Part shown: positions 1-3,824 of the stretch, piece by piece
Numbering within the stretch: the stretch's first letter is position 1
How the letters are laid out: each line of letters begins with the position of its first letter
NCBI RefSeq assembly: GCF_024643285.1
Contig: NZ_JAMSLW010000004.1
Location: forward strand, 1 to 64,000
Direction of reading: 5' to 3'
DNA from: Parapedobacter lycopersici
GTDB taxonomy: Bacteria; Bacteroidota; Bacteroidia; Sphingobacteriales; Sphingobacteriaceae
Length of the DNA stretch: 64,000 bases
Position numbers and translations under genes: made by a program
Notes under the pieces: generated by a model
Database searches by the model: none
The model's input: the letters and a program-made list of their open reading frames with translations, nothing else
Told to the model about the DNA's origin: nothing

Positions 1-246
1 TCCCCGCGAAACACCCCCCTCCGAAAAATCAAGCGCCCCCGAATGGCGCTCCAGGTGCCGCGAATAATAATCCCCGCCGGCGCCGGCCGTACCTCCGCCG
101 AACTGCCACAGCTCCCGGACAAACTCCTCGTAATAAACCCCGTCCGGGTGCGACAACAGCAGCTCCGAAAGCTCCCTGTCCTCCGAAGCACTCAGCTCTC
201 CTGCTGCCCTGCGTGCCAGCAATGCAACGATCCTTTTCTCATCCAT
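1..246 (-). CDS. FecR-family anti-sigma factor, N-terminal fragment (runs off left edge)
   Basis: Reading leftward from the ATG at 246 gives 82 codons that stay open to the window edge, starting MDEKRIVALLARRAAGELSA. A short acidic and helical start with a 'GELS..E..EL..LL..HPD' pattern is typical of the cytoplasmic anti-sigma domain of Bacteroidota FecR-like proteins. These sit in the inner membrane and hold an ECF sigma factor until a TonB-dependent transducer signals. The membrane segment and FecR periplasmic domain would lie outside the window. An ECF sigma gene on the same strand lies at 3255-3824, which would be the usual partner, but other genes separate the two. The family call rests on the N-terminus only. 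Confidence 0.55.
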   Translation of the reverse strand, partial: MDEKRIVALLARRAAGELSASEDRELSELLLSHPDGVYYEEFVRELWQFGGGTAGAGGDYYSRHLERHSGALDFSEGGVSRG

Positions 247-702
247 AAAATTTAAAAGACACCCCCTCGGCTTATAATTATAATTCGGGCCTTTAACTTA
301 AAGACATCTCTTTTCAGGAAACTCCCTAAAGGAAAATTAACTTTTTTTCAGGGCAGGTAATTACCGGTCCGGACGCAGGTGGTTATGCGGGTGTGCGGTA
401 GCAGGTGCGTCCGGCTACCCTTCGGGGCTTGTTCGGGACTTGTTCGGGATTTCTTCGGGGCTCGTTCGGGCATTCCTCGAAGCGTTTCGGAATGCAAACG
501 GTTGCACCCGAAGCAGCCCCGAAGCCCGGTCGAAGCGGTCCCGAACAAGAGTCGAAGCAGCCTCGAACAAGTCCCGAACAAGCCTCGAAGCGCACTCGAA
601 GCCGAGTCGAAGCGCCCCCGGACAGATCCCGAAGCCGGCGCGGACAATGCCCGCTCATGCCAGTCGGCAACAGGGAGATAAAAGTCAACGGGTACTCCCG
701 GA
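247..702. other. 456-base intergenic region holding the 11-bp repeat array
   Basis: No gene is supported here. The A+T-rich part (247-350) is the upstream region of the FecR-type gene, and I see no clear TAnnTTTG promoter in it. From 421 to 651 the DNA is an 11-bp periodic array. Several overlapping reading frames are open on both strands between about 350 and 790 only because the repeat unit contains no stop codon. Confidence 0.7.
421..651. repeat. 11-bp periodic repeat array that switches orientation
   Basis: Cutting the sequence every 11 bases from 421 gives 21 units in register. Units 1-5 (421-475) follow TTCGGGRCTTG, for example TTCGGGGCTTG, TTCGGGACTTG and TTCGGGATTTC. Three degenerate units (476-508) follow. 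From 509 to 651 the units read CGAANNNNNYY, for example CGAACAAGTCC and CGAAGCAGCCT, which is the reverse complement of the first type in the same 11-base phase. The array is therefore a large imperfect inverted repeat built of short tandem units. Because 11 is not a multiple of 3, the pattern rotates through all frames without stops. Function unknown. Confidence 0.85.
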
Positions 703-1764
703 TCAGTCGCGGTCCAGGCCCAGTAAATGCCGGTTCTGCGCTTCGTCTACCTGTCCGCCCGCAAAATCGTCAAATGCTTTTTCCGTAACCCGGATGATAT
801 GGTCCCGGATGAATACCGCACCTTCGCGGGCGCCATCCTCGGGATGCTTAAGTGCGCACTCCCATTCCATTACTGCCCAGCCCTTGAAGTCGTACGCGGT
901 TAGTTTACTGAATATGGCCTTAAAGTCGACCTGTCCATCGCCAAGCGAACGGAACCGTCCGACGCGGTTTACCCAGCCTTCGTATCCGCCATAGACCCCT
1001 TGTTTGCCGGTAGGGTTAAATTCGGCATCCTTGACGTGGAACATCCTGATCCGTTCATGGTAGTGGTCAATATAAGCCAGGTAGTCCAGTGCCTGCAGCA
1101 CAAAATGGGAAGGGTCGTATAGCAGACAGGCCCGGGGATGGTAGTTTACCTTCTCCAGGAACCGTTCGTAGCTTACGCCGTCGTGCAGGTCTTCACCCGG
1201 ATGGATCTCATAACAGACATCGACGCCATATTCATCGAATGTATCCAGAATGGGGCGCCACCGGTTAGCCAGCTCGGTAAATCCGGTATCCACGACCCCC
1301 TGCGGCCGTTGGGGCCAGGGGTACACCATGTGCCAAAGCAGGGCTCCGCTGAACGTTGCATGGGCGGTTAATCCGAGGTTATGGGATGCCTGTGCAGCAT
1401 ATTTCAGCTGCTGAACGGCCCATTCCGTCCGTGCTTTGGGTGCGTTATGGTATTCCGGTGGTGCAAAGCCGTCAAATAGCTGGTCAAAAGCCGGATGCAC
1501 GGCAACCAGCTGTCCCTGGAGGTGAGTGGACAGTTCCGTAATCTCCAGTCCCATCTCATTGATCATGCCTTTGATCTCATCGGCATAGGTTTTACTTTCC
1601 GCTGCCTGTTTCAGGTCGAAATAATCAGTTGCCCAAGTCGGAATCTGCACCCCTTTAAACCCCAGGTCCTTTGCCCACTGGCAAATGGATTTGAGTGTAT
1701 TAAACGGGGGTTGGTCGCCCAGGAACTGGGCAAGGAAGATGCCGGGGCCTTTGATGGTCTGCAT
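703..1764 (-). CDS. Sugar phosphate isomerase/epimerase-like protein (xylose-isomerase-like TIM barrel)
   Basis: This is a 353-residue protein with the AP-endonuclease-2 / xylose-isomerase-like TIM barrel. Candidate divalent-metal ligands sit on successive strands: Glu186 in CYEIHPGED, Asp217 and His220 in LLYDPSHF, His243 and Asp246 in MFHVKDAEF, and a late Glu in VMEWE. There is no signal peptide, so it is cytoplasmic. Such proteins isomerise or epimerise keto sugars or inositol derivatives (IolE and IolI belong here), and the substrate cannot be read from sequence. It lies 135 bases downstream of a Gfo/Idh/MocA dehydrogenase gene on the same strand, the usual pairing for oxidation followed by isomerisation of a sugar or cyclitol. 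Confidence 0.85.
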   Translation of the reverse strand: MQTIKGPGIFLAQFLGDQPPFNTLKSICQWAKDLGFKGVQIPTWATDYFDLKQAAESKTYADEIKGMINEMGLEITELSTHLQGQLVAVHPAFDQLFDGFAPPEYHNAPKARTEWAVQQLKYAAQASHNLGLTAHATFSGALLWHMVYPWPQRPQGVVDTGFTELANRWRPILDTFDEYGVDVCYEIHPGEDLHDGVSYERFLEKVNYHPRACLLYDPSHFVLQALDYLAYIDHYHERIRMFHVKDAEFNPTGKQGVYGGYEGWVNRVGRFRSLGDGQVDFKAIFSKLTAYDFKGWAVMEWECALKHPEDGAREGAVFIRDHIIRVTEKAFDDFAGGQVDEAQNRHLLGLDRD

Positions 1765-3254: not shown

Positions 3255-3824
3255 CTAGGTCAGGTTGAACTCCTGTTTAAGGATATGGACCAGTTTGCGT
3301 ACCGCATTGACCAAATGTGCATCCACCGTTTTGGGTGATATTCCCAATATATCTGCGGTTTCTTTGTAGGAAAACCCTTCCTCTTTCACGAGTTTAAAAA
3401 CCAGTTTAGCCTGATTCGGAAGCTTGGCGATGGCCCGTTCGAGGCCCGCCTTCATTTCCCCCTGTATCAGGATTGCCTCGGGTGAGGCGACCGTACCGAG
3501 CTGGATATCCACGTCGATATCATTCAGGGAGACCACCGTTTTACCCGATTGCTTTTTGACGTAATTGAGTGCCATATTCCGGGCGGATATAAAGGCATAA
3601 TGCTTGACGTTATTAACAGCTGTCAGCGTTTGCCGACGCTGCCATAGCATCAATAAAACGTCACTGGCAATCTCCTCAGCGGCCATTTCCGATTTAACGA
3701 TTCCGTAACAGAATTTAAGCAGGGGGGCAAACAGCAAAGCAAATACTTTCCCATAAGCATCCTCCGAATTTGCCGAAGCCATCTCCTCAACCAAAAGGGG
3801 TAGCGCTGGTAGTGTGTTTGACAT
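3255..3824 (-). CDS. ECF RNA polymerase sigma factor (sigma-70 family, Bacteroidota type)
   Basis: This 189-residue protein has the two ECF domains. Region 2 spans about residues 25-95 (AAEEIASDVLLMLWQRR is the region 2.2-2.3 core). Region 4 spans about 125-180, with the helix-turn-helix YKETADILGISPKTVDAH. It would direct RNA polymerase to a small regulon, usually a polysaccharide- or siderophore-uptake locus, under control of a FecR-type anti-sigma protein. A FecR-like fragment lies at the left edge, on the same strand but 3 kb away. A strong promoter precedes the gene, and the stop is 182 bases from the sugar cassette. Confidence 0.9.
   Translation of the reverse strand: MSNTLPALPLLVEEMASANSEDAYGKVFALLFAPLLKFCYGIVKSEMAAEEIASDVLLMLWQRRQTLTAVNNVKHYAFISARNMALNYVKKQSGKTVVSLNDIDVDIQLGTVASPEAILIQGEMKAGLERAIAKLPNQAKLVFKLVKEEGFSYKETADILGISPKTVDAHLVNAVRKLVHILKQEFNLT

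Follow-up and report, generated by a model that had tools for sequence, protein, structure and literature searches.

Dispersed arrays of 11-bp phased repeats converging on a fixed dyad in Parapedobacter and other Sphingobacteriaceae

The window (the whole stretch of DNA that was analysed, 64,000 nucleotides from Parapedobacter lycopersici) opens with a gene truncated by the contig end, which occupies 1..246 on the minus strand and encodes the N-terminus of a FecR-like protein; this name rests on resemblance only, the 82-aa fragment having no Pfam match. A gene for a xylose-isomerase-like TIM barrel lies at 703..1764, also on the minus strand, and an array of 11-bp repeats is found between the two at 421-651, upstream of the FecR-like gene and downstream of the TIM barrel gene. 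Further along the window there is an ECF-type sigma factor gene at 3255-3824, and genes for a GFO/IDH/MocA oxidoreductase and a sugar isomerase are situated between it and the FecR-like gene. The array is traversed by long open reading frames (ORFs) on either strand, which the preliminary description had predicted to be spurious. In agreement with this, neither of the two ORFs that were checked, one of 184 aa at 440..994 and one of 127 aa at 405..788, both on the plus strand, has a Pfam match, and the arrays account for a set of such spurious ORFs.

Within 421-651 we observed five TTCG boxes in one phase and 11 CGAA boxes in the same phase modulo 11. The maximum number of same-phase boxes within 231 bp was 11 in the array as against 3 in the remaining window, and in 100 dinucleotide shuffles the same-phase run never exceeded 4; periods of 11, 22 and 33 bp at the array were also detected by TRF. 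These findings show that the phased array, which keeps its phase across both orientations, is real. It consists of a short forward arm of five 11-bp units, TTCGRSWNNKS (421..475, plus strand), a degenerate unit with a conserved core (approximately 476..508, assigned to no strand) that contains the palindrome GCAAACGGTTGC at 494-505, and a long reverse arm of about 13 units (509..651, minus strand). Each unit of the reverse arm is CGAA followed by seven bases, the reverse complement of the forward unit, and the outermost ones are degenerate (CGGA). The orientation was earlier said to reverse half way; it does so roughly a third of the way along. Similarly, the register of 21 units was confirmed as far as the period is concerned, but the box is present in strict phase in 16 positions and not in every unit, and the proposed consensus TTCGGGRCTTG proved too narrow, being a subset of a looser unit with only 5 matches in the array at up to one mismatch.

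Over all arrays and both arms, the unit was found to be TTCG, A/G, C/G, A/T, N, N, G/T, C/G (TTCG-R-S-W-N-N-K-S), with position 7 relaxed in the P. lycopersici genome. Among 82 TTCG arrays, 907 of 966 box intervals of up to 24 bp were exactly 11 bp, a count that excludes 81 one-unit skips of 22; neighbouring boxes were 10 bp apart in 20 cases and 12 bp apart in 3. The dyad is fixed as well, with TTCG-N9-CGAA in 39 matches and one unit further out in another 42; the N9 form occurs in relatives, and the family of copies in P. lycopersici has a longer core. Direct units converging on one dyad, in place of alternating short palindromes, distinguish the arrays from REP/BIME elements, in which we know of no 11-bp phase. 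The BIME/REP elements of E. coli are palindromic and intergenic like the arrays, and some are bound by gyrase (PMC6379681), but they are made up of short palindromic REP units.

A DNA similarity search of the P. lycopersici genome (3.62 Mb in 22 contigs) gave 49 matches, which correspond to about 22 distinct arrays spread over several contigs, and many were found in relatives. According to the preliminary description, a lack of similar arrays elsewhere, and of any transcription or conservation, would suggest a local slippage product. Although the units are tandem by definition, the presence of many copies at unrelated loci and of a unit motif common to different genera has already refuted a functionless product of local replication slippage, the probability of which is close to nil. 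The counterpart of the core palindrome is GCAANNNNTTGC in 19 of the 22 copies, and the order of units in the right arm is common to the copies, with a mean identity of 0.716 in register versus 0.647 with the order shuffled. From these shared features it is probable that the copies are related by descent and did not each originate by a separate slippage event.

The genes next to these copies, named from their Pfam domains ("ileS" denotes a class I tRNA synthetase), include dnaK, rpsA, rplC, ileS, leuS, rimP and those for glutamate dehydrogenase, SusC/SusD and AlgH. They are mutually unrelated and often housekeeping genes, and a mixture of this kind does not support the suggested link of the arrays to FecR/sigma or sugar genes. 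The strand of the array relative to the genes was mixed, with no clear orientation rule. We rejected a role of the arrays as terminators, since convergent gene pairs flank only 4 of the 22 copies. At two loci of this genome (L032, 2801-3180, and L034, 2831-3210) a second type of palindromic repeat was observed, the inner ends of which are close to TAGGGGTTGGCTTCGG / CCGAAGCCAACCCCTA and which encloses a few TTCG units in phase.

Arrays of this architecture are found again across the Sphingobacteriaceae. A search with a four-unit pattern matched 42 of 301 genomes of the family, with a control pattern also matching a few. The matches listed from a stricter five-unit scan of the genome collection came from Sphingobacterium, Parapedobacter, Olivibacter, Daejeonella, Pedobacter and others; among them, clear two-armed arrays were mostly confined to these genera and other groups had mostly one-armed runs. 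Viral contigs were considered as carriers and rejected, their matches being short and nearly all one-armed runs.

In being dispersed, non-coding and intergenic, the copies resemble MITEs of the BrickBuilt type, their closest counterpart among the repeat families of the phylum. BrickBuilt is present in Porphyromonas gingivalis in about 19 dispersed intergenic copies of tandem units with predicted long stem-loops (PMC4596501), and in both cases the units have conserved and variable positions. However, BrickBuilt has 23-nt units and a leader and tail with IS5-like terminal repeats, whereas the arrays have 11-nt units, an inverted repeat of their own, no common ends that could be seen, and switching of the motif. 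With this precedent of 23-nt repeats from the same phylum (PMC4596501), the arrays could be a MITE- or REP-like dispersed repeat, inert or selfish, the units of which would be kept regular by slippage and inter-unit exchange and which would often land upstream of strong promoters. A unit order common to 22 copies beyond chance is what such a repeat would show, as is its variable presence at orthologous positions, where array-free sites exist in relatives. On the other hand, most of the P. lycopersici copies inspected by eye had no common sequence outside the array, and plasmid and phage collections gave no match to the arrays.

The constraint on the sequence, measured in 24 ortholog/paralog pairs, also bears on this explanation. 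Box positions differed in 2-7% between paired copies and most of the variable positions in 13-23%, with position 11 of the unit at 7%, the changes at most of these positions keeping to restricted alphabets; at position 5 nearly all changes were between A and G, and at position 6 the most frequent one was between C and G. Insertions and deletions (indels), counted as summed rows, numbered 18 per approximately 4,700 array positions versus 164 per approximately 9,700 flank positions, a frequency about four times lower in the arrays. Neither this rarity nor the constraint on the box would be expected of an inert repeat. Changes were over-dispersed per unit, partly from misaligned unit pairs, and since this is so, exchange of whole units probably also occurs; the over-dispersion counts in favour of an inert repeat.

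In other species of Parapedobacter we found dispersed arrays that share the 11-bp phase and likewise have a fixed dyad, but whose box is TTACC. In these the spacing was 11 bp in 111 cases, 22 in 15 and of no other length, and the dyad was TTACC-N5-GGTAA in 12 of 12. At the rpsA border, which has TTCG in P. lycopersici, a TTACC array was found in two relatives (G004 and G002) and five others were array-free; the TTCG array at the ileS border is matched by TTACC in five relatives, with three array-free, and that at the dnaK border by TTACC in G001. A different 11-bp array is present at the rplC border in G001, with weaker periodicity in three relatives, and a CTTGG/CTTCGG-like array at the rimP border in G006. 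Arrays recurred at 5 of the 6 borders tested. The border in the window is array-free in eight relatives, including G002 and G004, which have the same neighbour genes, indicating that not every site is conserved. Overall, 11-bp periodicity was observed at 13 of 47 sites in relatives versus 9 of 704 background windows, a comparison whose nominal p-value is too small because the species are related, and so not mutually independent, and the background is mostly coding.

Reuse of the same borders with another motif would not be expected of an inert repeat, which we regard as an unlikely explanation on balance; homogenisation of arrays and insertion hot spots could also give rise to both the rare indels and the recurrence of sites. 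The different box at the same borders points to a lattice bound by a protein, the target sequence of which has been swapped in the course of evolution.

We also considered a long hairpin of RNA or single-stranded DNA, for which a period of 11 bp would be apt, this being one turn of an A-form helix. The dyad is fixed, the boxes pair, and both strands were predicted to fold much more stably than shuffled sequences (z about -6), but complementary boxes in the two arms would produce such folding in any case. At the variable positions of five unit pairs in 54 distinct arrays, 770 pairs were observed, where independence of the arms predicts 768 (sums over the five unit-pair rows), and sliding the arms by whole units had little effect on pairing. 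Compensatory pairing between the arms was not found outside the boxes, Rfam returned no family at the gathering score for ten loci, and the arrays showed no strand preference relative to genes. Since complementarity outside the boxes equals the expectation for independent arms, a structured transcript is disfavoured, and we rejected hairpin RNA as combining strong folding with no co-variation from arm to arm; the hairpin reading as a whole is very unlikely. The same motif in both arms, together with pairing at chance level, favours a double-stranded form over a hairpin.

We propose, at odds a little short of even, that the array is a dispersed chromosomal element acting as double-stranded DNA, a putative lattice for cooperative binding or wrapping in which the box is replaceable. 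It would consist of two converging runs, with a box every 11 bp exactly, joined at the fixed dyad, and a putative chromosomal protein would contact one unit per helical turn of about 11 bp. So strict a period is best explained by a protein reading one unit per turn. The earlier suggestion that a period near one turn presents the same face to a protein is favoured by this strictness, with the proviso that the DNA be held at 11 bp per turn: B-DNA has 10.5 bp per turn, from which 20 units of 11.0 bp drift by about one turn. The element is positioned at gene borders, in many cases ahead of housekeeping operons, and would organise DNA locally or tune adjacent promoters. Where the box differs between sister species (TTCG or TTACC), a protein that reads the sequence would have changed its specificity or been replaced. 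A double-stranded lattice read by a protein fits the strict period and dyad, the constraint on the box, the duplex-type symmetry and the occupation of the same borders by arrays with another box.

The nearest mechanism, by analogy, would be that of ParR on parC. In plasmid R1, parC consists of arrays of 11-bp direct repeats that are cooperatively bound by ParR, with wrapping of the DNA (PMC9426499). The likeness lies in the phased 10-11-bp repeats and in a repeat sequence that differs between related systems. In contrast, parC is a plasmid locus of direct repeats beside parMR, whereas the arrays are dispersed on the chromosome and inverted about a dyad, and Pfam scans of the scanned neighbours showed no parM or parR beside them.

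A serious rival is that the arrays are strong wrapping sites for gyrase (or an HU-type protein), with the phased GC/AT pattern, and not the letters, guiding the wrapping. In E. coli, the motif of gyrase comprises a central part between two flanks in which the GC content has a period of 10.75 bp (PMC6379681), a layout that resembles two phased arms around a dyad. Several unit positions tolerate swaps of C with G and of A with T, the TTCG and TTACC units partly share a strong/weak skeleton, and genes with usually high expression are among the neighbours. However, the letters TTCG are nearly invariant in the arrays, which GC content alone does not require; many arrays, at up to approximately 260 bp, exceed the 130-bp gyrase footprint; and the period is 11.0 and not 10.75. 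With these discrepancies we consider a gyrase-type site decidedly unlikely, and retain the protein-read lattice.

More tentatively, and with rather more doubt than belief, the arrays may represent a new class of bacterial element, in which protein-bound lattices of exact 11-bp units converge on a dyad and are kept at particular gene borders of the Sphingobacteriaceae. From one sister species to another the box would be exchanged throughout the genome (TTCG to TTACC, and others), with a DNA-binding protein and tens of sites co-evolving. Our searches of open-licence papers gave no description of such arrays. If they are protein lattices, they would be a new type of element among the repeats of Bacteroidota, located beside genes for ribosomal proteins, tRNA synthetases and chaperones, and the sister species would be a natural experiment in which the motif of a chromosome-wide set of sites and the protein that reads it change in step.

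A TTCG array was observed approximately 200-300 bp upstream of a DUF6266 (PF19781) gene in many genomes of Sphingobacterium, Olivibacter and Parapedobacter (loci L080, L088, L095, L098, L104, L108, L114, L070, L076, L139, L143, L145 and L146). DUF6266 was the candidate examined as array-binding protein, and none was found: its model (mean pLDDT 63) has a fibronectin-III-like C-terminal fold with no DNA-binding match among those listed, and the copy in P. lycopersici is without an array; DUF6266 was classed as a gene that often lies nearby. The regions upstream of DUF6266 often contain phased repeats with other motifs and a period of 10-11 bp. At L139, L143, L145 and L146 a second array of the TGTCCCATTT type, with a period of about 10 bp, is placed between the TTCG array and the start of DUF6266. 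Several DUF6266 genes of Parapedobacter (L128-L134 and L287-L291) have in common, ahead of the start codon, a promoter box resembling TATGTTTG and, after it, a palindrome resembling GTACCGGTAC.
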